Positions 2,993-24,269 of a stretch of 24,269 bases of DNA are shown here, in pieces; positions within the stretch are counted from its first letter, which is position 1; the number at the start of each line of letters is the position of its first letter. The notes under the pieces are model-generated. The model saw nothing but the letters and a program-made list of their open reading frames with translations, was not told the origin of the DNA and made no database searches. The stretch covers positions 1 through 24,269 of the IMG/VR virus record IMGVR_UViG_3300046477_000093; one strand, written 5' to 3'. The stretch is from a virus. The position numbers were made by a program, and so were the translations under genes.

Positions 2993-3027
2993 CCGCTGGG
3001 TGATCGTGTTGACTTAGGTTTAATTTT

Positions 3028-3450: not shown

Positions 3451-4235
3451 ACCTGAAAGACCCGCAGGCGCAGAACCTGCCGCTTCAGCGCAAGATCGAG
3501 AAGCTGGTGGCGCAGCTCGGCGACAGGACGCTCGCCAGCATCAGCGCGCAGGACGTGATCAACCTCGCGAACGAGCTGTATTCGCACACGACGCTGAGCA
3601 GCCGCAATGACGCCGTGATCATCCCGGCGGCGGCGGTGCTGCACTACGCCGCGCGCAACGGCTGGTGTCAGTGGCTGAAGATTTCGCAGTTCGCGCGGAA
3701 GCGACCAGAAACGCGATCGGTGACAGATGAGGTTGAGGAAACGCTGATTAATTCGTTGCCGATGGGCAGCTACGAGCGGCTGTTCATGCTGTGGATTTTC
3801 CGTCAAGGAAACCGCGTCACCGAGCCGCTCAATGTGCGCTGGCCCAAAATCGACCTAACGCGGCGCACGGTCGATATCTGGGTTGAGAAGCGCCGGGAAT
3901 GGCGCACGAAGCCTTTGCACGACGAAGTGTTCGAGGCGTTGGCCGCGATCCCGCAGGACGCGCGCGCCGATTACGACGGTTATCTCTTTCCGTGGCGTGA
4001 GCGGAATGGAATTTACAAGTGGCTTAAGCCCTACGCGAAGCGGCTCGGCATCGCCTCCTTCACCCCGCATCAGGCGCGGCACACGGTCGGCCGAAAGCTC
4101 AACGCGAATGGCAACGGGCTTGCCACGATCATGGACGTACTCGATCACCTCGACCCGAGATCGAGCGTCCGCTACCAGAGCGTCGACGAAGCCACCGTGC
4201 GCCACGCGCTCGCCGGGCTGGGCAAGAGACGATGA
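3210..4235 (+). CDS. int: Phage tyrosine integrase
   Basis: A 341-aa site-specific recombinase that would insert and excise the phage at its att site. The order is an arm-binding-like N-terminus (NRVWIFRGRVAGRLREITTEF, about 14-34), a core-binding helical domain at about 70-165 and a catalytic domain at about 170-330. The catalytic set is visible: R202 in RQGNRVTEPLNVRW, H287 and R290 in HQARHT, H313 in LDHLDP and nucleophile Y322 in VRYQSV. The frame is open 31 codons further upstream, but the ATG at 3210 is chosen because GGAG lies 8 bases before it and the integrase-like sequence begins there. It overlaps the HTH gene by 241 bases and the next gene by 4 (ATGA). Confidence 0.92.
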   Translation: MSLNAIAPGKRKGNRVWIFRGRVAGRLREITTEFGPGTPARVLRQAAEQAERELWAEHEAGRIPRSGENTTFRQAAVQYLNLKDPQAQNLPLQRKIEKLVAQLGDRTLASISAQDVINLANELYSHTTLSSRNDAVIIPAAAVLHYAARNGWCQWLKISQFARKRPETRSVTDEVEETLINSLPMGSYERLFMLWIFRQGNRVTEPLNVRWPKIDLTRRTVDIWVEKRREWRTKPLHDEVFEALAAIPQDARADYDGYLFPWRERNGIYKWLKPYAKRLGIASFTPHQARHTVGRKLNANGNGLATIMDVLDHLDPRSSVRYQSVDEATVRHALAGLGKRR

Positions 4236-4516
4236 TAAAATCCCTCTTTAACGGTCCGTGGTACAAATACGTATTCGAGTATCCCGTTCCGTTTTACTGC
4301 CGTTCGTATGACAAACCCGTCCTTAAATATCATTGCCCCGCAAAAAACTTAGAAGATGCTCGGGACTATATGCGGCACGATTGCCGCCTCGCCGGATTGC
4401 GCGATGTTTTCAGTAACGAAGTCGACCTCAAAAAATTTGTCCTTCGAGAGCCCTATAACCCTGTGTGGCCGTTGCCGCCCGAACGGCCCCGCATTAATCC
4501 CGTGTGGCCTGCGTAA
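4232..4516 (+). CDS. 94-aa hypothetical protein, lower GC than neighbours
   Basis: The start codon overlaps the integrase stop (ATGATAA context), so it may be translated by coupling. The protein is rich in aromatic residues (WYKYVFEYPVPFY near the start) and contains the pair YNPVWP and INPVWP at the C-terminus, which is also a direct repeat in the DNA. Base composition drops visibly against the integrase, suggesting recent acquisition or a cargo gene. No family is recognised, and there is no membrane segment or signal peptide. Confidence 0.6.
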   Translation: MIKSLFNGPWYKYVFEYPVPFYCRSYDKPVLKYHCPAKNLEDARDYMRHDCRLAGLRDVFSNEVDLKKFVLREPYNPVWPLPPERPRINPVWPA

Positions 4517-4517
4517 C

Positions 4518-4535
4518 GTGGGGAAGCTGTGGGGA
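4518..4535 (+). repeat. GTGGGGA direct repeat pair 1 (11-bp phased)
   Basis: GTGGGGA occurs at 4518-4524 and 4529-4535, with starts 11 bases apart, so both copies face the same side of the helix. The 11-mer CGTGGGGAAGC at 4517-4527 recurs exactly at 4760-4770 in the second cluster. The arrangement looks like protein-binding sites (integrase arm sites, iterons or operators); the binder is unknown. Confidence 0.6.
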
Positions 4536-4562
4536 GACTTCGGCGAAAGTCGGGAAAATCAA

Positions 4563-4823
4563 ATGCTTAACACCCGGCAGAACTTATTTGTTGAAATTGT
4601 CGATACCCGCGCGGGACACTGTCGGCAACCCTCGGAAACGGCAGAAACTATTAGAATGATCAATCACTTAATGGCATCCCCCGCATCGCTCAGAACAGAA
4701 CAAATCGATACCGAAAACCGCGAACGTGCGCGGAACATTCCCCACAACCGTGGGGAGCCCGTGGGGAAGCGTTCGACAGGGGTTCCTGCGACAAATTGGG
4801 TCATCGCGCTTAACGACCTTTAA
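4563..4823 (+). CDS. Doubtful 86-aa open frame
   Basis: An open frame from ATG to TAA with no clear ribosome-binding site (only GGGAAAA upstream). The product is polar, with no recognisable domain, and its end is translated across the GTGGGGA repeats (PHNRGEPVGKR), which suggests DNA with another role. It is listed because nothing else fills this stretch; it may well not be a gene. Confidence 0.22.
   Translation: MLNTRQNLFVEIVDTRAGHCRQPSETAETIRMINHLMASPASLRTEQIDTENRERARNIPHNRGEPVGKRSTGVPATNWVIALNDL
4739..4767 (+). repeat. GTGGGGA direct repeat pair 2 with an inverted copy
   Basis: GTGGGGA at 4750-4756 and 4761-4767, again 11 bases apart, is preceded by the inverted copy TCCCCAC at 4739-4745. 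The inverted and first direct copy form a 7-bp perfect stem with a 4-base loop (AACC). The same spacing as pair 1, about 230 bases away, makes chance less likely and supports a shared DNA-binding protein. Confidence 0.6.
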
Positions 4824-4844
4824 TAATTTATCGATTATATAAAA
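4811..4844 (+). promoter_or_regulatory. AT-rich island, possible rightward promoter
   Basis: A run of A/T (TTTAATAATTTATCGATTAT then ATAAAA) lies some 70 bases upstream of the 63-aa membrane-protein gene. TTAACG at 4811-4816 followed by TTATAT at 4835-4840 could be read as weak -35 and -10 boxes, 18 bases apart. The match is poor; the compositional contrast is the stronger evidence. Confidence 0.25.
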
Positions 4845-4913
4845 GCGCGACGCCGCCTTGCTGGAAACAGGGCGGCGCCACTTTCCACCCCGATCGCGTT
4901 GGAGGCGACCGAG

Positions 4914-5105
4914 ATGAACAGCATCAATAATACGACTAAACGCACGCCAAAGGGCGAAAGACGCACCCGGCAGAGTTGGGCGCGGTTTTTTATGCTCGCC
5001 GCGTTCTGCGCGGCGGCGGTGCTTTCGATCAACTGCAATCCGATTATCTGCGATTCCAATTTAGCCGTTGGCGTCGCTGCGGCACGCGCCGATACCGCGC
5101 GGTAG
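4914..5105 (+). CDS. 63-aa single-span membrane protein
   Basis: The ATG has a textbook ribosome-binding site, GGAGG, 8 bases upstream, which decides this start over an in-frame TTG five codons earlier. The N-terminal 28 residues are basic and polar (TKRTPKGERRTRQSW). They are followed by one hydrophobic helix (FFMLAAFCAAAVLSI, about 30-44), a short segment with two cysteines (NCNPIIC) and an alanine-rich end. The positive-inside rule predicts N-in, C-out. It resembles small phage membrane cargo proteins, but no family is recognised. It lies upstream of the superinfection-immunity gene and may share its transcript. Confidence 0.6.
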   Translation: MNSINNTTKRTPKGERRTRQSWARFFMLAAFCAAAVLSINCNPIICDSNLAVGVAAARADTAR

Positions 5106-5199
5106 CTATCAAGTTTTTGGCCGGGTCTATCAAGCGGGCGCCGTCGCCAGCCGCTAAGCGTGACGAGCGCGGCTAGGGTAGCTCCCGAACCCCCGGTCT

Positions 5200-5234
5200 C
5201 CTTGCACGGGTTGCCGCGCGCTTATCCCGCAAGG
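5200..5234 (+). other. Hairpin in the leader of the superinfection-immunity gene
   Basis: CCTTGC (5200-5205) pairs with GCAAGG (5229-5234), and after a two-base bulge GGG (5208-5210) pairs with CCC (5226-5228), leaving a GC-rich loop of 15. It ends about 10 bases before the AAGGAAG ribosome-binding site of the next gene. There is no T-run, so it is not a terminator. A leader structure affecting translation is possible but unproven. Confidence 0.3.
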
Positions 5235-5256
5235 CGTTTTCTGCAAGGAAGAACTC

Positions 5257-5553
5257 ATGACACGCACCGAACCAAAGTCACCCGTCTGGTTTGTCCTCGT
5301 CGCGACCGCCATAATCGTGCTGGCGGTATATTTCTGCTCGCTCAGCGCCGGCGGACCTTTGGGCGTTGTAATAGTCTTGGTTTCAATTTTGGGCCTCGCG
5401 CTCTACATGATCCCGACGATTATCGCCATTTGCCGCGATCACCATCAGTGCGGCGCCATCGCGATCGTCAACTTTTTTTTCGGCTGGACCTTCATCGGTT
5501 GGGTCGTGGCGCTCGCTTGGTCGGCGAGCCATGTTGTCCGTGAGCGAGCATAA
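5257..5553 (+). CDS. Superinfection immunity family membrane protein
   Basis: A 98-aa inner-membrane protein with three predicted spans (about 10-27, 34-58 and 66-90). The second half matches the superinfection-immunity (Imm-like) family pattern: LYMIPTIIAICRDHH, then IVNFFFGWTFIGWVVALAWS. Members are named after T4 Imm, which blocks DNA entry of a second phage; many homologues sit in bacterial genomes with no tested role. The start has AAGGAAG 5 bases upstream. The gene is convergent with the late operon, and its TAA overlaps the T-run of the late terminator. A lysogenic exclusion function is inferred from family and location. Confidence 0.75.
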   Translation: MTRTEPKSPVWFVLVATAIIVLAVYFCSLSAGGPLGVVIVLVSILGLALYMIPTIIAICRDHHQCGAIAIVNFFFGWTFIGWVVALAWSASHVVRERA

Positions 5554-5589
5554 AAAAGCCCTCGGCGCCGATTTGGAAACGCCGAGGGC
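5551..5589 (-). terminator. Intrinsic terminator of the leftward late operon
   Basis: Read on the minus strand: a 10-bp perfect stem (GCCCTCGGCG / CGCCGAGGGC) with a 12-base loop, followed at once by TTTTTTA. This is a textbook Rho-independent terminator for transcripts coming from the lysis genes. On the plus strand there is no T-run after the stem, so it does not terminate the convergent immunity gene. Confidence 0.9.
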
Positions 5590-5653
5590 GAAAGAACGTA
5601 GGGAGGTACGATTCATCAACCGCCGCCACTGTAAAGCCCGAGCGGTTGTCAGG

Positions 5654-5809
5654 CTAGACGAATCCGAGCAGCAGCAGCACCAGCACAATCACGAGCAGGA
5701 CGCCGAGCGCGCTGCTCGGGTAATAGCCCCAGCCCCGGCTATACGGGTACGCCGGGAAGGCGCCGACCAGCAGCACGACCAGCAAGACGATGAGGACCGG
5801 CGTCAGCAT
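5654..5809 (-). CDS. DUF3309-type hydrophobic mini-protein
   Basis: A 51-aa protein with two hydrophobic helices (PVLIVLLVVLLVGAF at about 4-18 and VLLVIVLVLLLLGFV at about 37-51) joined by a conserved-looking turn, YPYSRGWGYYPSSALG. The turn and length match DUF3309, a family of about 50 residues of unknown function common in Alphaproteobacteria. It starts 4 bases after the endolysin stop and is the last gene before the late terminator, so it is co-transcribed with the lysis genes. A helper in membrane disruption (holin or antiholin) is a tempting guess, but the family also occurs outside phages, so the role is open. Confidence 0.8.
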   Translation of the reverse strand: MLTPVLIVLLVVLLVGAFPAYPYSRGWGYYPSSALGVLLVIVLVLLLLGFV

Positions 5810-5813
5810 GGCC

Positions 5814-6413
5814 CTACGCTTCGTTCGTCGAGATCGCGCCGGATGCCGTGACGTAGAAAGGTCGCACGCTTTCCGGCGGCTCGGTCATCGGCGCCCGACG
5901 AATGGCAATACAACGCGCTTTGGTGACCCGCGTGATCGTCACGGAATCGGACTGATTGCCGCCGAGCGTGTGATAGTGGGCGCCGTCCTCGGCGACGTAG
6001 AAGCCGACATGCCCGCCGCCGTCGCGGACGTAGACGAGGATGTCGCCGAGGCTCGCCTCGCGATCGTCGACAAAGCTCAATCGCGGATTGCGGTCGGTGC
6101 CTTCGTTGACCGCGACGGGCTCGCCGAACGTCGCCCAGTTGCGCGCCCACAAGGGATTGAGGATCGGGCCGTGACCGGCTCGATGGGTGACGATCGCCGC
6201 GAACAGCCCGCACCACGGCACGCTGTCATCCGAGAACCCTTGGATCGCTTTGGAATGCACCGCATTGATCTCGTCGCGCCAACCGTCGATCACCTCGTTC
6301 GATGCACGCCCCGGCTCTTCGTCGGTGCCTAAGAGATCGAGCGCGTGCAGGATCGTCGGCGGGTGCGCGCCCACGGTACTGAGAAACGCATATTTCGCCG
6401 GGATGCTCGCCAT
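5814..6413 (-). CDS. Endolysin, cysteine peptidase (TIGR02594 / NlpC-P60-like)
   Basis: A 199-aa peptidoglycan hydrolase of the TIGR02594 type. The catalytic cysteine is C68 in VPWCGLFAA, the histidine is H135 in GGGHVGFYV, and the third polar residue is probably N153 in LGGNQSD; NPLWARNW is also typical of the family. There is no signal peptide or membrane anchor, so release needs a holin-like partner. The start at 6413 is set by a strong GGAAGGA ribosome-binding site 8 bases upstream; a longer open frame upstream is a shadow of the neighbouring gene. It would cleave the peptide part of the cell wall at the end of infection. The ~20-residue C-terminal tail after the domain is of unknown use. 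Confidence 0.87.
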   Translation of the reverse strand: MASIPAKYAFLSTVGAHPPTILHALDLLGTDEEPGRASNEVIDGWRDEINAVHSKAIQGFSDDSVPWCGLFAAIVTHRAGHGPILNPLWARNWATFGEPVAVNEGTDRNPRLSFVDDREASLGDILVYVRDGGGHVGFYVAEDGAHYHTLGGNQSDSVTITRVTKARCIAIRRAPMTEPPESVRPFYVTASGAISTNEA

Positions 6414-6427
6414 GTTCGTGATCCTTC

Positions 6428-7039
6428 CTATTTGCTGACCAGCGTTCGGGCGACCTCGCGCGCGGCGCCGACCGCCACGTCTTCCGCCGTCGCTCCCGGC
6501 GGTTCCCGCCACGCAAGATAGATGACGCCCACGAACGCCTCGGGCGAGGGCGGGATCGGCATCGCGCAAGCGCGCTTCATGCCTCGGTCGGCGAGGCGTC
6601 GCATCAGCGGTGACTCTCGGGGTCCGGTATCGCCGCAGGCTGGGTGACCGGCGAGGACGTTCACGACCGCCTGGATGTCGGAGGTCGATACGATGACCGG
6701 CAGTCGCCTCGGGCTCGGGATGATCGGACGCTCGCCATCGGAGCGGCGGGCGGCGAGGAAGCGCTGGCTGTTGGCGCCGAGGTCGACCGCCCAGATCTGG
6801 ACTAGGTCGGCGCCGCTATCCTCGACCAGCTTGTCGAGCGCCGCCGGGACGCCGCCTGTGTCGAGCGAAGCCGCTTCCGGCGTCAGCCACGCCTCGAACA
6901 GCTCGTCGCGCTGCTCGTAGACGATCCACCCGGCGCCGCCGACGACGAACAGCACGACCAGCGCGGCGACCTTCCACGGGCGATCGACATAGGCCAGGAT
7001 CTGCCCCAGAAGCCCCGCAGGCGCCTTCGGATCGGACAT
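6428..7039 (-). CDS. N-anchored membrane protein in the holin position
   Basis: 203 aa. One membrane helix (WKVAALVVLFVVGGAGWIVY, about 22-41) follows a short cytoplasmic N-terminus, and a soluble domain of about 160 residues follows. The C-terminal part (MKRACAMPIPPSPEAFVGVIYLAW) has the strand pattern of a GAF-like fold, which is a weak impression only. It sits between the fibre gene and the endolysin with only 14 bases to the latter, where holins are usually found, but the large soluble domain is unlike a classical pinhole holin. It may be a holin, a lysis-timing protein or a spanin-like protein. The ATG at 7039 is chosen because the upstream open frame is a shadow of the fibre gene. Confidence 0.68.
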   Translation of the reverse strand: MSDPKAPAGLLGQILAYVDRPWKVAALVVLFVVGGAGWIVYEQRDELFEAWLTPEAASLDTGGVPAALDKLVEDSGADLVQIWAVDLGANSQRFLAARRSDGERPIIPSPRRLPVIVSTSDIQAVVNVLAGHPACGDTGPRESPLMRRLADRGMKRACAMPIPPSPEAFVGVIYLAWREPPGATAEDVAVGAAREVARTLVSK

Positions 7040-7056: not shown

Positions 7057-8667
7057 TCAGTGAACCGTCGCGCTTTCGAGCGCGGCGACCTTGGCCTGGA
7101 GCGCGGCGATCATCTCTTGTTGCTGCTGCATACCTTTGATGAGCAGCGGCGTCAGGCGCCCGTAGTCGAGCATCCACGGCTGGAGATTAGGGTCTTTTCC
7201 GCCTTCGTGGACCGCCTCCGGGTAAACCGTGGCGACATCCTGCGCCAGCAGACCCTGGCTCGCGGTCTTGCCCATCTTGTAGTCGCTGACCTTGATCGCC
7301 ATCAGGGCGTCGAGGCCGCGCTTGCTCTCGGTGATAGCATCCTTCAGCCGCTCATCGGAAGACGTGACATAGGTTACCTGATTGGTAGCGCTTCGAACGA
7401 TCCCACCAATCGTCACCGACTTGTCGAAAGACTGAAAGTTTATCAACGATGTCGTTGCGTCGGCGCCGTTCGGGCCGCTACGCACCGCACTGGCGTTAAG
7501 GCCCGCCGCCGCCTGACCGCTCACACTCAGCTTTTCAGTCGGCCCCGCCGTGCCGATGCCGACGTTGCCATTGCCTAGAACATTAAAGTAATCAGCGCCC
7601 GACGAGCTACGGACCAGTACAGCGTAATCTGCTGCCGTCGATCCGGCTTGCATCGATAGCCCGTAGCTCTGGCCCGATGTTGTGCTTCCTGTGAAGGTAG
7701 CCGCCCAAATACCAGCCGGGCTGACCGTGTGGATCTGTGCTGTCGGCACCGTGATGCCGATGCCGACCCTGCCGCTGTGGTCGATCCGCATCGCCTCGGC
7801 GAGCGTCGTCGTGCCATTGAGCGTCGTGCGAAAACGCAGACAGGTTCCGTTTGCCGTATCGCTCCAGGCTTCCGTCGTCGCTGCCGTGATCCCGACCTTG
7901 TTATTGGCATAGGCTGTAGCCCCATAGCCGCTACCAAAAATCGAGAACAGAAACGCCCCGCTGTTCAACGGTTGCGGCGATGCCGCTGTATTGATCGCCG
8001 CCCGCATGGAGAGCGTCGGCGTGCTGCCAAAAGCATCAAGCGCGAGGGCGCTGGCACTGCCGTCTGCGGCGCCGATTTGCAGCAGCGTCCCGGCGGGCGG
8101 CGCCGGTAGCACCGCCGCGTTGGCGTTGAGGACCAAGCCGCCCTGGCCGGGGTCGGGCGCCGGGTTGCCGATGACGACGCCTTGGTTGATCGTCATTCGT
8201 CCGATTGGCGATCCAAGGGTTCCCGGCGCCGTTGTGGCAAAATTGATCCGTGTTCCGTTCGCGGTAGCTGTCCAGTTTTCGCTGGCCTGCATCTCAATCC
8301 GCACCGCATTGACGTTGTAGATAGTCGTGGCGCGGCCATGCCCGATGAGATTCAGCAAGAAGTCGCCGCTTTGCACCGCTGTCGGCGCCGCTGCGGTGCC
8401 GCGCGACCGTCGTCCTACCACTTGAGGTGCGACACTGGCCGAATAGCCATCCACAAACAGTAACGGCGACGTGCTTTCGCTTACCAGCCACGCCTGTGGC
8501 GATGACGTTGTCGCTTGCGGCGCCGCGCCCGAATTCGTGATGATGACCGGACCCGGCGAGATCGTGCCGCCCGCCGTCGATAGCGGCGGCGTCGTCAGCG
8601 AGACGGTGCCGTCAGCCGCTACGCTGAATTGACCGTTGAGATACTCGGGACCGGAGAGCGTCGGCAT
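7057..8667 (-). CDS. Tail fibre with C-terminal S74 intramolecular chaperone
   Basis: A 536-aa receptor-binding fibre or spike. The long middle is beta-rich with Ala, Thr, Asn and Gly, and shows repeated fibre units (RVGIGITVPTAQ, NVGIGTAGPTEK). The end is a peptidase S74 chaperone domain: SSDERLKDAI with the Ser-Lys dyad S437 and K442, then SQGLLAQDVATVYPEAV and a C-terminal coiled coil (QQQEMIAALQAKVAALE). In this family the domain drives trimerisation and then cuts itself off just before the serine, releasing about 100 residues. GAGGAG lies upstream of the ATG. It is the last clearly structural gene before lysis and is likely to decide host range. Confidence 0.88.
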   Translation of the reverse strand: MPTLSGPEYLNGQFSVAADGTVSLTTPPLSTAGGTISPGPVIITNSGAAPQATTSSPQAWLVSESTSPLLFVDGYSASVAPQVVGRRSRGTAAAPTAVQSGDFLLNLIGHGRATTIYNVNAVRIEMQASENWTATANGTRINFATTAPGTLGSPIGRMTINQGVVIGNPAPDPGQGGLVLNANAAVLPAPPAGTLLQIGAADGSASALALDAFGSTPTLSMRAAINTAASPQPLNSGAFLFSIFGSGYGATAYANNKVGITAATTEAWSDTANGTCLRFRTTLNGTTTLAEAMRIDHSGRVGIGITVPTAQIHTVSPAGIWAATFTGSTTSGQSYGLSMQAGSTAADYAVLVRSSSGADYFNVLGNGNVGIGTAGPTEKLSVSGQAAAGLNASAVRSGPNGADATTSLINFQSFDKSVTIGGIVRSATNQVTYVTSSDERLKDAITESKRGLDALMAIKVSDYKMGKTASQGLLAQDVATVYPEAVHEGGKDPNLQPWMLDYGRLTPLLIKGMQQQQEMIAALQAKVAALESATVH

Positions 8668-10203: not shown

Positions 10204-11747
10204 AAGGCCAGGATGAGGATGTTCGTCGCCGAATTGTACTCCATGCCGGTGATCACCATGCTGCGCCCCGCGTCGTAGCCGAAGCGCGGGATGACGACCG
10301 AGACGGTCTTGCCGAGGTCGAGGATCGAGATCGCCTCGGGCGTCAGCGGCGTGTCGATCTCGACGAAGTCGCGGCGGACCTTGTAGAGCCCGAGCACCCG
10401 GTTTGCTTCCGCCTGGGCGTCGGCCTGATTGACCAGCAGGGTCTCCACCGTTTTCTGCACCGCTGACGGGTTCGGGATCTGGACGCTGGTGTCGGTGGCG
10501 ATTGCCGACCGGGTTGCGACGGCGAGGAAGGCGCGCGCCGCATCGGTGACCACGCCCGCGAGCCCGTCAGTCTGCACCGTCCAGTTGTGGGCGTAATCGA
10601 GCGTGACCTGCCACGTCGGGACGCCCTTGTCGGGATCGTTGGTCGCGAGGAAGCGGCAGTCGACGATGTCGAGGTCGCCGCTCGCGGCGTCGCTGTCCAG
10701 GCCGAACCGGCGCAAGGTGACGACCGGCGTTCCCGGCGCCTCGACCCGCTGCATCCGAAACTGCCCGTCCGCGTCAAAGCCGTACCACGCGCCGACGCTG
10801 CCGAGCACTTGATCGAGCGCCGCGCCGAAGGTGCTTTCGCTGTCGATCCAGATCCCGACCACCGAAGGGTTGGCGGCATCGAGCGCCGCGACATCCGCCG
10901 CGCTGACATCACCGGCGGGAATGCCGCCCGTCCCAGTGACCAGCGCCTTCGAGACCTGGGCTGCGGTGCGGGCCGCGACAGTGGCGCCCTGGAGCACGTC
11001 AGCGGTCACCGCGCCGGTTGGGCTCGCGCCGAGCCGGATATAGCCGCCGGCTTTCCAGACCCGGTAGTTGCCGCCCGGCGCCGGCGCGTTCGCCTCCATG
11101 TCGGCTTGGCTGGTGTAGTCGGCGCCCTTGGTCAGCGGCGCACCGGAATCGTAGGCGGCGGGCACGTCGAACACCGGACCATCGTTGACCTGATATTCGA
11201 GCCGGGCGGTGTTAACGCATGACAGCGTGACGTTGAGCACTTGCCCTGCCGCCTTCGGCTTCGGCTTGCCCTTGAGGTCGGCGACGCCTTCGAGCCCATT
11301 GGGCAGCACATTGGTCCCGGCGTACTTGTTCGGCTGGATCGGTTGCTGGAGGTCTTGCAGGCGGTCGCGCAGCTTGATCTGCACCTCGGCGAGGTCGAAC
11401 AGCGCCTGCTCGACCCGGCCCGCAATGACCGTGACAAAGCTCGAATAGGGCGCCGCGTCGTCGCCGAGCAGGATCGTGCAGGTCTGCCCCGCCATCCCGA
11501 AGTCGCGCAGGTTGTCGAGTTCGCCGTCCGGGTTGGCGATGATCAGGTCGCCCTGGCTGACCGTGCTGGCGCCGCCCGTGGTGTTCTTGCCGAAGATGTC
11601 GCGGCGGAAGGTCGGCAGCTCGGTCACCCGGTTGGCGTATGGGCCGGGCGCGGTCGGGTGGAGGTATGGCTGCGAGCTATAGCGCAGCGTCGTCAGCGCG
11701 CCGGCGCTGGTGTCATAGGCGGCGATCTCGATCAGGTAGGTCCGCAT
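10194..11747 (-). CDS. Tail hub / distal tail structural protein
   Basis: 517 aa, directly downstream of the tape measure (the two share one base) and in the order expected for a distal-tail or hub protein. The N-terminal part has the pattern of many hub proteins: TVSQGDLIIANPDGELDNL, then TCTILLGDD. The C-terminal half contains VVIPRFGYDAG and a closing strand set, NILILALWG. The protein would cap the tail tube and hold the tip and fibres. Family assignment rests on position and general sequence style, not on a diagnostic motif. Confidence 0.75.
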   Translation of the reverse strand: MRTYLIEIAAYDTSAGALTTLRYSSQPYLHPTAPGPYANRVTELPTFRRDIFGKNTTGGASTVSQGDLIIANPDGELDNLRDFGMAGQTCTILLGDDAAPYSSFVTVIAGRVEQALFDLAEVQIKLRDRLQDLQQPIQPNKYAGTNVLPNGLEGVADLKGKPKPKAAGQVLNVTLSCVNTARLEYQVNDGPVFDVPAAYDSGAPLTKGADYTSQADMEANAPAPGGNYRVWKAGGYIRLGASPTGAVTADVLQGATVAARTAAQVSKALVTGTGGIPAGDVSAADVAALDAANPSVVGIWIDSESTFGAALDQVLGSVGAWYGFDADGQFRMQRVEAPGTPVVTLRRFGLDSDAASGDLDIVDCRFLATNDPDKGVPTWQVTLDYAHNWTVQTDGLAGVVTDAARAFLAVATRSAIATDTSVQIPNPSAVQKTVETLLVNQADAQAEANRVLGLYKVRRDFVEIDTPLTPEAISILDLGKTVSVVIPRFGYDAGRSMVITGMEYNSATNILILALWG

Positions 11748-14700
11748 CAGCCGAAGGCTTGGCGCCGCAGGGTCGTCTGAATGCCGTTCATGGTGTCGAG
11801 CTGCGCGCCTTGCGCCCCAGCCATGAACTCATCGAACTGGACCGTGACCTCGGCGAGGAAGGTGATGTATTCGCGAATGTTGTTCAGTTGATCCCAAAGG
11901 TTGCGGTTCCAGCCGATCATATTGTCGAGAATTTCTTGCAGCTTGTTGTAGAGGTTCTGGTTCCAGGCCACCTCGTTCGAGTTCACGCCGCCGATCGCGT
12001 TGTAGAGGTTCTGCCCCCACGAGACGAGGTTCGCGGTGAGGTTGTTCACCGCATTGGTCGTCGAGCTGCCGCTCAACGCCGCCATTGCCGAGACCATGCT
12101 ATTCGCCGCGCCATAGGTGGCGGCGATCTCGTTGTTGCTGGTCGTCGTCTCGGTGCTGACGATCGAGTTGGCGTTCGCCGCCGCGATGCCGATGCCGTAA
12201 TTCGACCAGGCGGCGACCGTGCCGACGACCGAGTCGGCGGCGGCAAAGGTCGCCTGCACGACGCCGTTCGAGCCGTTCGCGGTCACGCTGTAGAGCCCGC
12301 CGAACCAGTAATTGAGTGTGCCGATCGTCGCGTTATCCCAGGCGACTTGACTTTGCAGCAGCGCGTTCGACCACGCCGATATGGCGCCGATTACGGTCGT
12401 GCTGTTGCCCATCGCGGCGCTGATCGCGCGGTCGGTCGTGACCTGTGCGGTGTTGGCGAGCGCGGCGGTCTGGGTGTCGTTGGCGCTGATCAGGCTGGCC
12501 GTCGTGTCGGTCGTGCGCTGGGTGATGGTGGCGGCGTTCGCCGTGTTGCCGGCGATGATGGCGCCGGTCTGCGCCGCGCCCGCCGCCTGGAGCGTCGCCG
12601 CGTTTTGCTCGTTCCCCTGCATCGTGCTGATCGCGTTCGAGGTGTTGTTCGCGATCAGGCTGGCCGAGTTGGCGACGTTGTTGTTCAGCAGCGCGACCGT
12701 GCCCTCATAGACCGTCGCCCCGCTGCTGACGACCGCCGCTGTCGTGGTCTTGCTGGCGTCGACCACGGTCCCGGTGCTGCTCACCAGCTTCAGGGTCTGG
12801 TCGTTGAACTGCTGCGCCGTGCCGCCGACGATCGAGGCGGCGCCCTGGAGGGTCGTGTTGGTGATGTCGGTCGCGGTCGAGATCGTGGTGCTGATGATGT
12901 TGTCGTTCGCCACCTTGGCGGCGGCGAGGATGGTGCCGTTCGCCTGGATCGCGTTGTCGGTGATCGCCTTCGAGGAGGCGATGCCGGCGTTGACGATCTG
13001 CGCCGTCTGATCGTTGAGGGTTGCCGTGGTGCCGGCGGCGGAATTGTTGATCGCGTCCACGACATCCGCCGTCGTCGCGGTCGTCGTGCCCGGCCCGACC
13101 GTGCCGAGCAAGCCCTGGAGTTGTTGCTGCACTTGCTGGAATATCGCCTGCCCTGGTGCCGAGGAGGCGTAGTAGTCCGACACGTTCTGCAACAGGGTCT
13201 GCGCCGCCGTGGTGATGCCCTGCAAGGCATCGAGGTCGCCGCCCTGCGCTGCCGCCAGCATCGTGTTGTATTGCGACTGCGCGGCATCGAGCCGCGACTT
13301 CGGGTCGGTGAACGCGCTGCTCGCCGTCTGGAGCTGGTTCAGGTACGCCTGGATATTCGCCTGGGCGCTCAAGATCGTGTTAGCCCGAGCCTGCGCGTCG
13401 GCCTGCGCCTGGGTCGCGGCGGTCGCCGCCTCGGCCTCGTCGACCCACTGCGCAAACGCCGGGTTGAGGTCAGCCAGCACGGCGCGGGCCTGCTCCATCT
13501 GGTCGGTCGTCAGGCCCATCAGGATATTCAGCGCCGCCCGGTGCTCGGTCTCTTGCACGATGGCGTTCTGGTCGGCGCCGAGCCCGACCGAAGCGTTCGC
13601 CGCCTGCGCCGCGATCCTCGCCTGATCGAGGTCGCGGAGCTGCGCCAGGAAGCCTTGGCCGGCGGCGGTGTAGGCGTTCTGCTGGTTCTGGTAGATCTGG
13701 GTCTGCTGCGCCAACTGCGCGTTGAGCGCCTCGGTCGCGGCTGCGGCATCCCGAGCCGTCGTCGCCAGCGCCGGAAGGTCGTTCGTCAGATCGCCGAACT
13801 GGGCGATGACCTGATTGAGTTGCGTGCTGGTGAGCGACGAGAAGACCGTCTTCAGGCTGTCGTCGAAGGTCTGCCCGAGCTTGTTGAAGACATCGCCGCT
13901 TGCGCCGATCGCCGACGCCTCGCGAGCCATCGACTGATAGTTGTCGACGATGCTCTGGATGCCGTTCAGGAAGTCCGATCCGCTTGCGGTGTTGAAGGCG
14001 GCGTCGACCGCCTTGGCGAAGTCCACGTTGAGCCGCTTGGTCGCCTCGGCGAGCGCCGCGTTGATCGGGTCGAGGCTCAGCCCGTACTGGGTCGCCTGAT
14101 CGGTCAATTGCCCGAACGTCGTGGTGATCTGGGTCATCGCCTGCTCGAACGGCCCGGCGACCTGGGCGCCGCTCTCGACCGAGGCAAAGGACTGATCAGC
14201 CGCGGTCTTGATCTGGTCGTAAGCGTCGGCGAACTGCTTCGCTGCGGTGAGGGCGTCCGCGCTCTGGAGCTGGTCGAGGCTAAGCGTCGAGACGATCTTG
14301 CCGAGGGTCGGTGAGAGCCCCGACAGATCCATGTGCTGGGAAAGAAACTGCGCCACCTCCTGAACAACGGTCCCGGCATCCGAGCCGGTGAAGGACTTCA
14401 CGCCCTCGCCCGAGGCGATGTTGACCTTGATCCCGTCCCGACTCCCGGCCTGGGCGACCAGGGTCGCCTGCGGCAGCACCGAAGCCCCGAGGATCGAGGT
14501 GATTTGCGACAGCGCTGAGCCGATCGGCTGAAGGATCGCTTGGCTGGTCTGGTCGTTGGCGGCGACGCCGCCCGAGGTGAAGGCGCCGAGCTGTCCGGTC
14601 GCCAGATTGACCGAGCCCGAGCTGGCGAGGTTCGGCTTGCCGGCACCGAACAGCCCGCCGAGCAAGCCGCCCGCCGACCCGCCGACCAGCCCGCCGATCA

Positions 14701-17700
14701 AGGTGCCGATACCGGGGATGATCGAGCCGATGATCGCGCCGGCCAGCGCCCCGCCGGTCGAGCCTATCGTGCCGCCGAGGGTCTTGCCGCCGCCGATCGA
14801 TGGGCCGAGCAGCGAGTTCAGCAGCGAGCCGGCGGTTGCGCCTGCGGCGACGCCGCCGAGCGCGCTGGTCAAGGTCGTGCCGCCGAACAAGCCGCCGGCG
14901 ACACCACTGCCCGCAATATCGGACGTGGCGCCGGTTGCAGCATTCGTAAAGATGCCCGCGCCGGCACCGCTGCCAGGAAGCAAACCAGTAGGCGCGAAAC
15001 CAAGCGAGGTGCCGATGTTGTTGTTGATGAAGCCGCCGATGCCGCCGCTGCTGCCGAAGAGCCCGCCGCCGCCGCCGAACAGGTTCGACCCGGAGCTCAG
15101 CAGCGACCCGGCGTTGCTGATCGTACCGAGCACATTGCCGCTACTGTCGACGATCTGCGCGCCGCCCGTGACGCCGGCGGTGCCGGTGCTGCCGCTGAAG
15201 ATCCCGCCGCCGCTCGGGTTGAGGATGCCGGCGCCCGAGAACAGCGACCCGAAGCTCTGCGCCGCGCCGCCAAAGCCGAGGAACCCGAGCACGCTGCCGA
15301 TCGCCGGCTTGATGACCGACAGACTGAGGAGCTGACCCTCGATCTGCACCAGCACATTTTTGAAGACATCGTGCCACGCGGTGATCTTCTGGCCCGAGAG
15401 CGCGGCCTCGATGTTCTGGGTGACCGCGCTATCGATCGTCTGGCCGATCGAGGTGAGCGTGTCGTTGATGCGCTGCTGGTTGCGCTGCGCTTCTTGCAGT
15501 TGCGCGTTGAGGTCGGCGGTCGCCTTGACCGAGGCGAGTCGGGCGTCCTTTTCCTTCTCGCTGAGCAGCGGGAATTTCTCGTCGAGCTCTTGCTTCGCTT
15601 TCAGCAGGGTCAGTTGCTCGGTGATCACATCGCTCGACTGACCCTGGAGCGAGATCTCCATTTGCAGCGCGGCCTGCGTGTCCTTCTGCGACTGCATGTC
15701 CTGCGCGTTTTGCAGCTTCTCGGCTTGCGCCATCTGGGTCAGCAACTGCTGACGGCGCTCCTCAATCTCGGCGGTGTGACCGACAGCGGTCCCGTAATGC
15801 GTGGTGATCTCTTCGAGAGCCTGCGTCGCCGCCGTCGCCTCGACGACCGCCAGCCCGCCCTTCGCATAGGCTTCGGTGATGTCTCGGGTCGCCAGCGTCG
15901 CGCGGTCGGTTGCCGTGGTGACCTTATCCCACTGCGCGGCGCCCTCGGCGGCAGCCTTCGCCATCGCGTCGGCCCGGTTTTTGTTTGCGTCCTCTGGGGT
16001 AAGCCCTTTCGTGAGGGCGTCGTCGTAGGCTTGCTGCCCCGCCCGCAAGATGTCCGCCTGGACGCCTTGCGCCTTGGATACCTCTAGGTCGTTCTGGCGG
16101 GCTCGGGTGAGGTCGTCTAAAGCCTTCGCGCTCTTCTGGATATCGTCTGGCTTTACGTCCCCGCCCGCAGCACCGCCAGCGGCGAGGAACGCGGCCTGCT
16201 TTGCCTGATTGTTGGCGACCTCCGCGTTCTGCCCGATGCCGATATGACCGGGATCGGGATTGCCGAACAGCGAACCGATCGAGACCGGCGTGTTCAGCGC
16301 CATCGCGGCGCGCAAGACCGCCCGCTCCATGTCCGGTGTCGGAAGCCCGCCACCCATGCTCGGTCGACCGACGACGCCCGTGTCAACGACGTTACCCTGA
16401 GCGTCGACGACGCGATAATCTGCCGCGTTGCCGCCGGGATGCAGGCTCGAACCGGAGCGACTGCCGACACCTGAGAAAATTTGGAAACTCTGCCCGGCAG
16501 GGAGGATAACGGACGCTGCTCCAAGTATCTGCTTGAGCTGCTCGACGCCCGGCGCTGTCTGCACGCCCGGCGCCATCGACACGCCGCCCGCCACTCCCGC
16601 CGCAGGCGCGATCGGGATCACCTGCCCGGCCTGATTGCCGGTCCCGCCCGCGCCCGGCGCCGTACCGCCCGCCGTCGTGCTGCCGAACAAGCGGGCGGCT
16701 GCATTGGCTGCGTTCGCCAACCCCTGCATCATCGCCGCCGCGAAATGCCCGAGCGGCTTGTTCAGCGTGTCGAGTAAATTTGTCCACGCGATGCTGAGAT
16801 TGTTGACCGCCTTGGTGAACTCGCTGATCGAGCCCTTGTAAAGCCCGGCTGTCCGCTGATCGAGCAGGCCGAGCAACTGGCTCAGCGCCTTGGCGCCCTG
16901 CCCGTTGCGCCCCATCTGCTCGAAGTTCGCAGCTTCCGCTGCTGTCAAGTCGTGGAAATCCATCGCGAGCTTGATCGCCGTCTCCAGCCCCTTGAACGCC
17001 TCGGTAACCTGGGTGATGCCGGCAACGGTTCCTGCCCCGGTGATGGCGCCGAGGTTGGCGCCGACCCTGATGATCTGGTCGGCGAACGCCGGGTTGAGTC
17101 CGGCGTTCGAGATCGCCTTGATCGCCTTTGCGGCTTCGTCAATGGCGACCCCGTATTGCTGGGCTGACCTTGCCGACGCTTCGAGCTGCGTGCCGGTCGC
17201 CAGCGAGGTCTGGCCCATCCCGGCCAAGGTCGTGTTGAAAGATCGGACGCGATTTTCCGACTCAATCGCCCTGGCGGCGAGCGCAACGACCGCGGCGATC
17301 ACAATCGCCACGCCTGCGGCAGCGGCACCCGCAGCGAGCCCGACGCCGCCGAGGCTACGCGCCAGCGCCGGAAGGGCGGGCGCTATCTGAAAGAGTTGCG
17401 TCTCGAAGGTCTTCGCGGCGCCAACGCCCGCCGCCAGCGACTGCGCGGTGTTGATCACGCCCGAGCGCAGGATCTCCATGTTGACGAAGCCGATTTTCGC
17501 CGCCTCGCCCACGCCCTTGATGGCGTTCGAGTGAACCTGCGCGATCTTCGCGTTCTCGTTCGCGGCGTTCGACAGCTTCTGGATGCTGGCGATCTGGGCG
17601 TTGTAGCGATCGGTGACGAGTTGCGTGGCGGTTGCCAGCTTCGCCGCGTCGCCGGTGCCCTCGGCCTGGAACTGGGCGATCCGGTTCAGGCTCGCCTGAT

Positions 17701-17956
17701 AAACCTGCGTCGCCTTGGTCGCCCTATCCATCGAGGCGATCCAGCGATCGAGCTGGCTGGTGCTGGTGCGCTTAACGGTGGTGACGTTCTCTTCGGTCTT
17801 GGTCACCGTGACGGTCGCCGCCGCCAACTGCGCCGCCGACGCCGTCGCCTTGTCCTGGGTGCTCGATAGCGCAGCTATGGCAGCGTCGGCCTTTTGGATG
17901 TCCGGCGTGCCTTGAACGCTGAGCTTGTAGATTGCCGTGGTTACGACATCAGCCAC
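11747..17956 (-). CDS. Tape measure protein with embedded LAS/M15-like peptidase
   Basis: 2069 aa, by far the largest gene, placed right after the chaperones. At about 1.5 angstrom per residue it could set a tail near 300 nm, less if folded domains do not count. Visible parts in order: helical, Gln- and Ala-rich N-terminus; a hydrophobic segment at about 205-230; a metallopeptidase-like motif SxHxxGxAxD with H506 and D513, and a second His (H571) in PDPGHIGIG; coiled helices at about 600-860; a Gly-rich zone at about 900-1110 ending in a glycine zipper (GAIIGSIIPGIGTLIGGLVG); more helices to 1600; an Ala/Thr/Asn-rich stretch; and near the C-terminus three WxxNLY/W units. The start is GTG, with GAAGGG about 8 bases upstream. 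The plus-strand open frames opposite it are shadows. Confidence 0.92.
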   Translation of the reverse strand: MADVVTTAIYKLSVQGTPDIQKADAAIAALSSTQDKATASAAQLAAATVTVTKTEENVTTVKRTSTSQLDRWIASMDRATKATQVYQASLNRIAQFQAEGTGDAAKLATATQLVTDRYNAQIASIQKLSNAANENAKIAQVHSNAIKGVGEAAKIGFVNMEILRSGVINTAQSLAAGVGAAKTFETQLFQIAPALPALARSLGGVGLAAGAAAAGVAIVIAAVVALAARAIESENRVRSFNTTLAGMGQTSLATGTQLEASARSAQQYGVAIDEAAKAIKAISNAGLNPAFADQIIRVGANLGAITGAGTVAGITQVTEAFKGLETAIKLAMDFHDLTAAEAANFEQMGRNGQGAKALSQLLGLLDQRTAGLYKGSISEFTKAVNNLSIAWTNLLDTLNKPLGHFAAAMMQGLANAANAAARLFGSTTAGGTAPGAGGTGNQAGQVIPIAPAAGVAGGVSMAPGVQTAPGVEQLKQILGAASVILPAGQSFQIFSGVGSRSGSSLHPGGNAADYRVVDAQGNVVDTGVVGRPSMGGGLPTPDMERAVLRAAMALNTPVSIGSLFGNPDPGHIGIGQNAEVANNQAKQAAFLAAGGAAGGDVKPDDIQKSAKALDDLTRARQNDLEVSKAQGVQADILRAGQQAYDDALTKGLTPEDANKNRADAMAKAAAEGAAQWDKVTTATDRATLATRDITEAYAKGGLAVVEATAATQALEEITTHYGTAVGHTAEIEERRQQLLTQMAQAEKLQNAQDMQSQKDTQAALQMEISLQGQSSDVITEQLTLLKAKQELDEKFPLLSEKEKDARLASVKATADLNAQLQEAQRNQQRINDTLTSIGQTIDSAVTQNIEAALSGQKITAWHDVFKNVLVQIEGQLLSLSVIKPAIGSVLGFLGFGGAAQSFGSLFSGAGILNPSGGGIFSGSTGTAGVTGGAQIVDSSGNVLGTISNAGSLLSSGSNLFGGGGGLFGSSGGIGGFINNNIGTSLGFAPTGLLPGSGAGAGIFTNAATGATSDIAGSGVAGGLFGGTTLTSALGGVAAGATAGSLLNSLLGPSIGGGKTLGGTIGSTGGALAGAIIGSIIPGIGTLIGGLVGGSAGGLLGGLFGAGKPNLASSGSVNLATGQLGAFTSGGVAANDQTSQAILQPIGSALSQITSILGASVLPQATLVAQAGSRDGIKVNIASGEGVKSFTGSDAGTVVQEVAQFLSQHMDLSGLSPTLGKIVSTLSLDQLQSADALTAAKQFADAYDQIKTAADQSFASVESGAQVAGPFEQAMTQITTTFGQLTDQATQYGLSLDPINAALAEATKRLNVDFAKAVDAAFNTASGSDFLNGIQSIVDNYQSMAREASAIGASGDVFNKLGQTFDDSLKTVFSSLTSTQLNQVIAQFGDLTNDLPALATTARDAAAATEALNAQLAQQTQIYQNQQNAYTAAGQGFLAQLRDLDQARIAAQAANASVGLGADQNAIVQETEHRAALNILMGLTTDQMEQARAVLADLNPAFAQWVDEAEAATAATQAQADAQARANTILSAQANIQAYLNQLQTASSAFTDPKSRLDAAQSQYNTMLAAAQGGDLDALQGITTAAQTLLQNVSDYYASSAPGQAIFQQVQQQLQGLLGTVGPGTTTATTADVVDAINNSAAGTTATLNDQTAQIVNAGIASSKAITDNAIQANGTILAAAKVANDNIISTTISTATDITNTTLQGAASIVGGTAQQFNDQTLKLVSSTGTVVDASKTTTAAVVSSGATVYEGTVALLNNNVANSASLIANNTSNAISTMQGNEQNAATLQAAGAAQTGAIIAGNTANAATITQRTTDTTASLISANDTQTAALANTAQVTTDRAISAAMGNSTTVIGAISAWSNALLQSQVAWDNATIGTLNYWFGGLYSVTANGSNGVVQATFAAADSVVGTVAAWSNYGIGIAAANANSIVSTETTTSNNEIAATYGAANSMVSAMAALSGSSTTNAVNNLTANLVSWGQNLYNAIGGVNSNEVAWNQNLYNKLQEILDNMIGWNRNLWDQLNNIREYITFLAEVTVQFDEFMAGAQGAQLDTMNGIQTTLRRQAFG

Positions 17957-19020: not shown

Positions 19021-20283
19021 TTAGACCGCCGCGCTGTCGGTCATCACGATAGTCGTCTGCGGCACGCCGGGCGCGTTGCCGACGTACTTCAAGGCCGTGA
19101 ACGGCATGGTCAGCGTCTGGCTGCCGATGCCGGTCACGGCAACATCGGCGTCGCTGAACTTGACCCTCGGCAGGTAGATCGAGATGGCGTCGGCGTTGGC
19201 GTCGTTGGTCGTCGTGAGATACGCCAGGATGTCGACCTCGTCCTCGTCGAGGAAGTTGCGCACGAGGTCGAGGTTTTCGAGCATGGCCGTCACTTGGCCC
19301 GTCACCGCAGCGGTGCCGAGGAAGACCTCGGGAACGAAATTCTGACCGACCACGGCGTCGGAGCTCGGCGACAGCTCCAGCGTGATGTCGAGGCCGGTCA
19401 CCACGCCGAGGACAGCACCGTTCACCCTCAACATGCCATTCACCGCCGCCAGAATCCCGGTCGTCGTCTCCGGTAATGGCGTCGTGAAAAACGGGGCCGG
19501 CGTCGGCGTCGTGGCGTCGAAGGTCTCCATGTCGCGGCCCATCATCGGGAACTCGACCGTCGCCATCCCCGAGGCGGGCAGGGACAGCTTGAACCCGCCG
19601 ACGCGGACCTCGGTGAATAGCCTGCTGACACCGATGTCCTCGTGGAACGTCTCGAACGCGAACTTGCGGGGAACGAACCCGCTCGACGGGATGATCAGAT
19701 GCGAGCCTACGGTTGTGAGCGTGAAGACCGTTTCGGCGGTCGACATCGTGACCGGCTCGGGGAACACGGTCACGTCGGTATTGCCGGCGCCGCCGAACCT
19801 CACGGCGATGAAGTTCACGCCGTTGTTCGGGACGCCGCCGCCGGTGAGCCCGCCCAGGCGAAAGACGCTTCCGACTCCCAGCCCGGCGGCAATCGGATCG
19901 GTGCCGAAGATGAACTTCGAGGTTGTGGCGTCGGCGCTGATGCTGGTCAGCTCAGACTCGGTCAGCGACAGCGCCGGCGTTGCCGTGCCGCGTGTCCCGG
20001 CCTCGAACAGCGGCCAATAGGTGCCGGGACTGAACTCGCCGGTGATCGAGCCGGTGACGCGCCGCGTCCCGTGCCGGAAGTCGACGGTCTGCCGATCGGT
20101 GCGGACCTCGGTCGCCGAATAGCTGTCCTTCGCCAGCTTCAGCGTCGAGGCGACGCGGCGCAGCGACTGCGCGCCGGTGGCACCTGGGTCGGTTGCCAAC
20201 AGCGGCTGCGTGTTGGATTGGATAACGCCCGTGGCATAGGGCTTGTAGCGGACTTGGGCTGATACGCCTTCGGCGAGCGACAT
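19021..20283 (-). CDS. Major tail tube protein
   Basis: A 420-aa phage tail tube protein (tube_2-like). Family-style signals near the N-terminus are SLRRVASTLKLAKDSYSATEV, followed by RTDRQTVDFRHGTRRVTGSI and EFSPGTYWPLFEAG. The C-terminal half has the repeated strand pattern expected of a tube subunit, possibly with an inserted or added Ig-like part given the length. The ATG at 20283 has GGAG about 8 bases upstream; a longer frame 17 codons further up lacks such a site. It polymerises around the tape measure. Its place between the tail terminator and the chaperones is the standard order. Confidence 0.87.
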   Translation of the reverse strand: MSLAEGVSAQVRYKPYATGVIQSNTQPLLATDPGATGAQSLRRVASTLKLAKDSYSATEVRTDRQTVDFRHGTRRVTGSITGEFSPGTYWPLFEAGTRGTATPALSLTESELTSISADATTSKFIFGTDPIAAGLGVGSVFRLGGLTGGGVPNNGVNFIAVRFGGAGNTDVTVFPEPVTMSTAETVFTLTTVGSHLIIPSSGFVPRKFAFETFHEDIGVSRLFTEVRVGGFKLSLPASGMATVEFPMMGRDMETFDATTPTPAPFFTTPLPETTTGILAAVNGMLRVNGAVLGVVTGLDITLELSPSSDAVVGQNFVPEVFLGTAAVTGQVTAMLENLDLVRNFLDEDEVDILAYLTTTNDANADAISIYLPRVKFSDADVAVTGIGSQTLTMPFTALKYVGNAPGVPQTTIVMTDSAAV

Positions 20284-20334
20284 GGGGCACACTCCATAGG
20301 GGAGGGGCGCCTTGCCCAAGGGCGTTTGAATCAA

Positions 20335-21869: not shown

Positions 21870-22576
21870 GCCGACCAGATCCGATAAGGCGCGAGCAGGC
21901 CGCAGACCGCTTCGGGCGGGCCGAGGCCGGTCTCGGTGAAGCTGCCGGGATCGTCGGCGTAGGTCACCGTCAGCACGTCGAATACCGCCTCGGAGCGCAC
22001 CGCCGGATCGCGCCCGCGCTGCATCCAGCGGGCATTGAGCCAATCGAGCGCGGCGACCTTTACATCCGCCGGGACGGTGTCGAACCCGGCGTCGTAGTCG
22101 ACCACGATCTGCGAGCTGCACCAGAAGCCCATATTGCCCATGCTGTCGAGACGATAGAGCTCGCCGGTCCCGAGCTCGACCTCGAAGAACACCGGATCGA
22201 GGGCGGCGCCGTCCTCGGTGATGGTCAATACTGGCGTCCCGTCCACCTCCGTTGCGATCGGCAATTGCCGGGTCTGGAGCGGCGCCCCCATGCGCAGCCA
22301 GTTGCGCGCGTGGCGGATCTGGTCGCGGTAGGTCTGGCGGACGAAGGTGCGGCTGCAATAGTTGTCGATCGCCGCCGAAACCGAGTCGATCTGGAGCTGC
22401 AACATCGTGTCCTGCGACGTGTCGGTGTCGGCGATGTCCAGCACCGCCTTGAGCTCTTCGAGCGTCACCAGCCCGAGCGATGGCGCCGGCGTGACGACCC
22501 TGGTGAGCCGATAGCGCGGGTTGACCGGCGAGGCCGGGAAGGTCGAGCTCGGATAGTAATAGCCCAGGTAGCTCAT
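21866..22576 (-). CDS. gp6-like head-tail connector protein
   Basis: 236 aa. The family core is visible: LGLVTLEELKAVLDIADTD, followed by LQLQIDSVSAAIDNYCSRTF, the usual helical start of gp6-like connectors that ring the portal exit. Further on, IVVDYDAGFDTVPADVKVAALDWLNARW is the second typical segment (YxAG...P..vk.A...). The N-terminal 35 residues (YLGYYYPSSTFPASP) are an extension. The ATG overlaps the stop of the collagen-like gene (TGATG), so the two are coupled. Confidence 0.85.
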   Translation of the reverse strand: MSYLGYYYPSSTFPASPVNPRYRLTRVVTPAPSLGLVTLEELKAVLDIADTDTSQDTMLQLQIDSVSAAIDNYCSRTFVRQTYRDQIRHARNWLRMGAPLQTRQLPIATEVDGTPVLTITEDGAALDPVFFEVELGTGELYRLDSMGNMGFWCSSQIVVDYDAGFDTVPADVKVAALDWLNARWMQRGRDPAVRSEAVFDVLTVTYADDPGSFTETGLGPPEAVCGLLAPYRIWSA

Positions 22577-23433
22577 CAGCGTTGCTCGGCGTGGTAGGTC
22601 TCGAACACCTCGCGCAGATCGAGCGGCGGGCCGATGCTGCCATCACTCATCACGGGCAAGGCTTGGTAGCCCCGCACCGCCCATTCGGTGATCACCGGCG
22701 CCTGCTGCCCTGGCAGCCCGCGTTCGCCGCGCTCGCCGGGCTTGCCGCGACTGCCCGTCTGTCCCGATAGCTGCCACCCGTCGCCGGGCAACGTCCCTGG
22801 ACTGTCCCGCTTCGCCCGCCACTCCGAGCCGTGGAAGGTCACGAGGTCGAACTTGCGATACGCGCGGCCCGGCTCATAGAGCCCGCAGACCTCGCCGACA
22901 TAGGGCGTCTCGCCACGGGCGGCGATGAGGGTCCAATCCTCGCCCGGCGGTTCTTGCGCGGTATCGCATCGCGCCTGGAAGGTCTCGCCGGCACGAACGA
23001 CGACATCGCCCTCGTAAGACACGCCGCCCTGCCAGAGCCTGACCGGCGGCAGCTTGCCGGGCGGTCCCGGCTCGCCCCGATCGCCGGGCGGTCCCGGCTC
23101 CCCAGGCCCGCCTCGATCGCCACGTTCCCCAGCTTCCCCACGCTCCCCAGGCTCGCCTGGAGGCCCAGGAAGCCCCTGATCGCCCGGCGGGCCTGTGATC
23201 GCCTCGCCGGGCGCCCCCTGCGCTCCCCGCTCACCAGGCGGGCCGGCTGGCCCATCCCGCAGTTCCCCGATCCTCGCCGTGATCGCGAGCTCGGTCTCGG
23301 CCCGGCTGGCGCGCATCTCTGCCAGCGCAACCGACAGTGATAGCCGCAGCTCCCGCTCGATGCGGGCTGCCATCGCGCCGAGCTCTTCGCCAAAGGCGTC
23401 AATGGCAGCGTCAAGCGGCGAGGTGTCGGACAT
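22576..23433 (-). CDS. Collagen-like protein with carbohydrate-binding-like segment
   Basis: 285 aa from this start. An N-terminal amphipathic helix (about 8-55) is followed by about 21 Gly-X-Y triplets at 61-126 ([22 protein letters not shown] and similar, with one break at GEAIT), and a second short collagen run lies at 227-243. Between them are two copies of a CBM5/12-like pattern: [19 protein letters not shown] and [17 protein letters not shown]. Collagen-like triplets form trimeric rods in phage proteins. It may be a neck whisker, head fibre or surface adhesin. An ATG at 23487 has a better ribosome-binding site (GGGGAG, 8 bases upstream) but would overlap the portal gene by 77 bases; either start is possible. 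Confidence 0.75.
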
Positions 23434-24269
23434 TCGCTGCGCGGAAGGCGGCAACAGCTCTGGCTTTTGCGGCAGGGTCTGCTCCATTGCCACTGCTCCC
23501 CGATGCCGGCGGCGGCGCCGGTGGCGCGTTGGGCGCCGGTGTCGCCGGTGGCGCCTTATCCCACGCGCTGAGCGGCACGACCTGTTGCTGGACCCTCGGC
23601 TCGTCGCCAAAGGGCACCGCGGTCAGCTCTTCCCTGGCGCGCGCTTCGTTCGGGCTGAAGATGCCGCCCTGGACGCCCTGCGCCAAAGCCGCGATCCTGT
23701 CCTTGAAATTGGCGCGAAGCAGCGCTTCGAGGTCGAGCTCCAGATATTCGTCGGGCTGGCCCGCCAGGGCGAAGAGCCGACCGAACGCCGTTTCGATATG
23801 GTTGGCGGCAAAGCCGAGCCCGGTCGCCACCCAGTTCGCCATCAGGCTTTCGGTCGCGGCCTGCGGCGCTTGCCCGGCATCGAAGCTGAGCAGCGGTAGC
23901 GGCACCCGGTACGCGGTGGCGATGCGCTGGTCGGAGATCTTGAGCATCTCGGCGAGCTGCGCGTCGCGGCTGTTGACGACGGTCGGAACCCACTTCATCC
24001 CGTCAGTCAGGATCGGCGTGCCGCCGACGTTCGGGCCTTGGGTCTGCTCGTTCCACTGCGCGCGCAACTGGCGGATGCCGTCCGGTTGGTTGTGATAGCC
24101 CTTGTCGGTTTGGATGACGCCGCTCGGTCGTCCCTGGTTGCGTGCATAGGCGAGGGCTTGCGACACCATTGCCGTGGAGACCTCGACTTCGAGCAGCGCC
24201 GATTGCAGCGGGGAGATGCCCCAGAGCAGGTTGCGCCGGTCGGGAAACCGAACATGCAGGACATCGCGC
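23411..24269 (-). CDS. Portal protein, HK97-type (5' end outside window)
   Basis: The C-terminal 285 residues of a portal, the dodecameric ring through which DNA enters and leaves the capsid. The frame is open to the window edge, so the N-terminus is missing. Portal signatures: DVLHVRFPD and [11 protein letters not shown] at the edge, [36 protein letters not shown], then [28 protein letters not shown] and [12 protein letters not shown]. The C-terminus is a Pro/Ala linker ending in [16 protein letters not shown]. Its stop lies inside the start region of the collagen-like gene. Terminase is expected beyond the right edge. Confidence 0.92.

Follow-up and report, generated by a model that had tools for sequence, protein, structure and literature searches.

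Tail tape measure proteins (TMPs) that carry a peptidase domain of the LAS type (lysostaphin/D-Ala-D-Ala peptidase/Sonic hedgehog) are already known in principle. Motif 3 (mt3) of the TMP of mycobacteriophage TM4 helps the phage to infect stationary cells, and peptidoglycan is hydrolyzed by motif-3 proteins (PMC1796659). A pneumococcal protein with this motif belongs to clan MD; it is an L-Ala-D-Glu endopeptidase whose zinc ligands are His, Asp, and His (PMC11667670). A tblastn search with TM4 mt3 retrieved 755 phage records; the names listed were those of Actinobacteria phages, except for one given as Bacteriophage, and most of the listed records were annotated as tape measure. Virion endopeptidases are described as nearly confined to phages with Gram-positive hosts (PMC6116005), and a Gram-negative example of a wall hydrolase in a TMP is the CHAP domain of gp95 of Caulobacter phage phiCbK (PMC3556154). 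In the M15C enzyme EndoT5, the T5 endolysin, zinc is bound by H66, D73, and H133, the catalytic D130 stands three residues before H133, and the invariant Trp near the M15C active site (W114 of EndoT5) was found to be essential (PMC10487532).

The window, i.e., the whole stretch of 24,269 nucleotides analyzed here, contains a very long ORF with a GTG start (11747-17956, minus strand) that encodes a coiled-coil and Gly-rich protein of 2069 amino acids. The gene is placed between the tail tube gene (19021-20334, PF18906) and the tail-tip genes, and its product is homologous to the TMPs of contigs L005, L008, and L027, which bear the Pfam domain TMP_2; the identification as a TMP is sound. A sequence-only reading had pointed out a metallopeptidase motif in the first third of this protein. 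The ORF translation confirmed the residues on which that reading was based, at 24-28% along the protein: SLHPGGNAAD (residues 504-513, window 16418-16447, minus strand) is an exact SxHxxGxAxD with the proposed zinc ligands H506 and D513, and a second His at 571 lies within DPGHIGIG (residues 568-575, 16232-16255, minus strand), where D568 is the proposed catalytic residue and H571 the proposed zinc ligand. Both parts of the LAS/clan MD signature are present in these two stretches, the H-x6-D in its SxHxxGxAxD context and the second zinc-type His with an acid three residues earlier (D568-P-G-H571). SxHxxGxAxD occurs once across all six frames of the window. When the TMP was shuffled 20,000 times with its composition preserved, the motif came up in 17 of the shuffled sequences, and in none of them together with [DE]xxH 40-110 residues downstream; the combination of the two motifs in the TMP is not a product of chance.

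Like the window protein, TM4 carries a LAS-type H-x6-D inside its tape measure (HPSGRALD in TM4, HPGGNAAD in the window). In contrast, the second motif of TM4 is NHMDHVH as opposed to DPGH, the mt3 second motif RGSxTxNHxDHxH is absent from the window domain, and there is no significant sequence or profile similarity between the two. The family Peptidase_M15_3 (PF08291) shares SxHxxGxAxD and shows a weak in-register alignment over this first motif, but its acid is an upstream Glu, its last motif is W-[VIL]-H, and its Pfam model does not match the domain. In the M15C endopeptidases EndoT5, ChiX, LysECD7, and EndoRB49, which also gave the best fold matches described below, SxHxxGxAxD is followed by DxxH with the catalytic Asp. 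The DxxH was invariant in the nine M15C phage endolysin sequences that we collected, one of which has DGGH. The earlier impression that an Asp before the second His is unusual was thus not borne out, as DPGH has the spacing of D130 and H133 of EndoT5 and of the nine M15C sequences. Since the catalytic Asp of M15C stands at this very distance from the second His, the best analog would be an L,D-endopeptidase and not a D-Ala-D-Ala enzyme, and the window domain probably works like an M15C enzyme. On the other hand, the matched M15C members are stand-alone endolysins or cellular enzymes, and the profile match to M15C was non-significant. The Trp is invariant in the collected M15C set, while no Trp is found anywhere in the sequence of the window domain, and for this reason the domain was not filed in M15C.

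To get an idea of the fold, the window domain was modeled with AlphaFold2 from six sequences, which gave a model of modest confidence (pLDDT 62, pTM 0.60) with the order helix, strand, strand, helix, strand, strand that fits LAS. The LAS/M15-like domain supported by this model and the VIA-align matches spans residues ~465-590 (16187-16564, minus strand). The top VIA-align matches in the PDB were ChiX (Z 6.0 over 103 residues), EndoT5 (5.6), and LysECD7 (5.5), followed lower down by the RB49 endolysin (4.8) and by LysB4, Hedgehogs, DacB/LdcB, and VanX. LAS members accounted for 21 of the 50 matches listed, many of them redundant Hedgehogs. Foldseek paired the model with ChiX at a probability of 0.82 and an E-value of 0.15, and the top nine matches to viral models included a Peptidoglycan-binding-like phage protein as well as an L-alanoyl-D-glutamate peptidase of a Bacillus phage. 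According to the VIA-align ranges, the alignment ends with residue 137 of EndoT5 opposite residue 116 of the model; if no gap intervenes, H571 would fall on the zinc ligand H133 of EndoT5 and D568 on the catalytic D130. The model is favorable to a LAS fold, yet a pLDDT of 62 and a Z of 6 place it below the level of a proof.

A profile-profile comparison of the domain with the PF08291, M15C, and mt3 sets was non-significant, in a test of low power with small alignments, and the positive control (M15C against mt3 or PF08291) likewise scored low; because accepted LAS sets find each other so poorly, the comparison has little power. Thus, of the comparison with LAS/M15 peptidases that the sequence-only reading had called for, the structural half was favorable (top matches LAS, Z 5.5-6.0), while the profile half gave no significant match. 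No match to the domain was found in Pfam, PHROGs, NCBIfam, or the PDB sequences, and judged by the Pfam, NCBIfam, and PHROGs models it is not assigned to any named M15 family; current annotation libraries miss it. In a PDB profile search with the domain, a cortical-lytic enzyme was the only hit (E 0.26), which was judged to be due to chance. Neither the domain nor the whole TMP matched any of 50,697 phage records by tblastn, and a scan of GTDB genomes with the TMP returned no relative; relatives were found solely among metagenomic virus contigs. A gapped DNA pattern of the motif was found in 11 viral contigs, nine of the already known kind and two by chance, while the 42 genome contigs that matched it were rejected as chance hits with a broken frame, stops, or no motif context. 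When 398 genomes from the order of Sphingobium were searched with an HMM, two marginal matches emerged, which were judged to be noise.

A diverged copy of the domain was found in a group of cousin contigs (L005-L008 and L010-L018), whose TMP is ~54% identical to that of the window. The copy in the L005-L008 group is 28% identical to the window domain (...TAHNPAAGGAFDYKI...PDIGHIGF), with GxAxDY, LFG, and DxGHIG invariant between the two; in terms of residues, D513, the G/A positions, D568, G570, H571, I572, and G573 are all shared with the L005/L008 group. In the cousins the first motif retains its His and its Asp, but spaced two residues wider (HNPAAGGAFD), a spacing absent from the LAS sequences collected for comparison. 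Within the cousin group the dN/dS of the domain was 0.12-0.19, indicating purifying selection. The model of the cousin domain had a pLDDT of 49, and its best two matches were protocadherin; LAS members made up 28 of the 50 matches listed, and VanX, LysB4, Ply500, and Hedgehogs were also seen. These data bear on whether the motif arose by chance, within a linker or some unrelated fold, in a TMP with no peptidase at all. The low model confidence and the lack of a significant profile match would fit such an origin, which we nevertheless regard as very improbable given the shuffle test, the separate motif blocks conserved in a homolog at 28% identity, the purifying selection, the predominance of LAS among the fold matches, and the exchange with lysozyme domains described next.

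The DNA of contig L003 is 99.9% identical to the window. In a blastn comparison with L019, which is the same contig as L004, the two sequences are 95.2% identical over 7.5 kb (to position 7506 of the reverse complement), then differ over a dissimilar block, and are again 96.9% identical from position 8119. The breakpoints delimit a cassette of TMP residues ~399-602 (16152-16763, minus strand) that holds the domain. The sequence-only reading had placed the motif region correctly, but the exchanged unit is larger than the block it had given. In L004 the block is replaced, between nearly identical flanks, by a lysozyme-like SLT_3 domain (10294-10779; PF18896, E 2.4e-19), and the pattern is that of a recent cassette exchange within the TMP gene. 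The TMPs of L027 and L131 are more distant (31-32% identical to the window TMP). An SLT transglycosylase (PF01464, E 2.8e-18) occupies the corresponding slot of L027, which follows the TMP_2 domain and precedes the coiled coil. The slot of the L131 TMP (1772-6835; 32% identical) contains only a linker-like stretch, in which no hydrolase was recognizable by eye. The presence of SLT_3 in L004 and SLT in L027 at one position indicates a site for exchangeable wall hydrolases, and this exchange offers the strongest functional argument for the predicted role of the window domain. The TMPs with lysozyme, SLT, or CHAP domains (L004, L027, and phiCbK gp95) resemble that of the window, with its predicted hydrolase, in having a wall hydrolase domain inside the TMP, at the same slot in L004 and L027, but their domains belong to another enzyme class and cut another bond.

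The exchange also helps to judge two further explanations. TMP processing is known in some phages, and the domain could be a protease that cleaves the TMP or other tail proteins during assembly and not the cell wall. We find this the least probable explanation, since the interchangeable partners cleave glycan and cannot process proteins, and the fold-matched enzymes cut peptidoglycan. Somewhat less remote, though still unlikely, is a domain of LAS descent, no longer catalytic, that binds peptidoglycan or guides the TMP in the periplasm, comparable to Hedgehog, where the fold is kept and wall hydrolysis is unproven. The strong divergence from all models, the missing M15C Trp, the altered His-Asp spacing of the cousins, and the many Hedgehog matches speak for such a loss. 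Against it, all four candidate catalytic or ligand residues are present in the window at the canonical spacing (HxxxxxxD and DxxH), and catalytic domains are what otherwise fills the slot.

We therefore consider it likely that the segment is a divergent LAS-fold zinc-peptidase domain within the TMP, acting as a predicted virion-associated peptidoglycan hydrolase. The LAS/M15 zinc-site layout suggested by the sequence-only reading has gained from the fold matches, the conservation in the cousins, and the swap with lysozyme and transglycosylase domains, whereas its D-Ala-D-Ala type has given way to the L,D-endopeptidase as the better analog. In such a peptidase, one zinc ion would be held by H506, D513, and H571, and D568 would serve as the general base for the zinc-bound water. 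On ejection, the TMP would enter the envelope by way of the tail tip; there the domain could leave the tube, refold in the periplasm, and cut stem-peptide bonds, thereby making a local gap through which the DNA channel can pass. The bond cut is most likely of an L,D type such as L-Ala-D-Glu, as both the nearest folds and the DxxH point to L-Ala-D-Glu endopeptidases.

The nearest matches of the gene that follows the TMP, at 29-32%, are in EBPR siphovirus 2, Caulobacter phage Sansa, and Azospirillum phage Cd, and this similarity suggests a Gram-negative, probably alphaproteobacterial host. The TMPs of Sansa and Cd contain no such motif. The presence of RecT (156-1121) together with an integrase (3117-4235) suggests that the phage is temperate. 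A TIGR02594-family protein (5814-6569, minus strand; NCBIfam E 2.4e-18, with 66.7 bits just under the cut-off of 70.55) is probably the endolysin; with a separate probable endolysin, the TMP domain would not be needed for final lysis.

With LAS-type TMP domains already known in principle, what is new is a divergent, unannotated family whose setting is probably Gram-negative, a sister copy in which His and Asp are spaced differently, and a clean exchange, found in nature, between peptidase-like and lysozyme-like cassettes. It is possible, though we put it forward tentatively, that the window domain, together with the 28%-identical copies in the cousins, represents a so far unrecorded TMP-specific family of LAS peptidases of (probably Gram-negative) phages. 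In such a family H-x8-D would be tolerated beside H-x6-D, and recombination would exchange its members for lysozyme and transglycosylase domains between phages that are otherwise nearly the same. A LAS-type TMP peptidase in a phage with tail relatives infecting Caulobacter and Azospirillum would extend the Gram-positive-centered picture of virion endopeptidases. With the near-identical phage pair that differs in the cassette, nature has set up an experiment on the interchangeability of peptidase and lysozyme activities during DNA entry, which also bears on whether the choice of cassette follows the wall chemistry of the host.

Some other features of the window were observed as well. TMP residues 884-1108 (~14630-15310, minus strand) gave a weak match to PHROG 1047 (tail associated lysin) over a Gly-rich stretch, which is likely compositional. 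Directly after RecT lies a gene for an SMC/Rad50/RecF-like ATPase (911-2992, plus strand). The tail fiber (7057-8667, minus strand) ends in a C-terminal Peptidase_S74 intramolecular chaperone (PF13884), and an ORF adjoining the portal gene (22576-23610, minus strand) contains collagen-like GPPG/GEPGERG repeats with weak matches to collagen-like adhesins.
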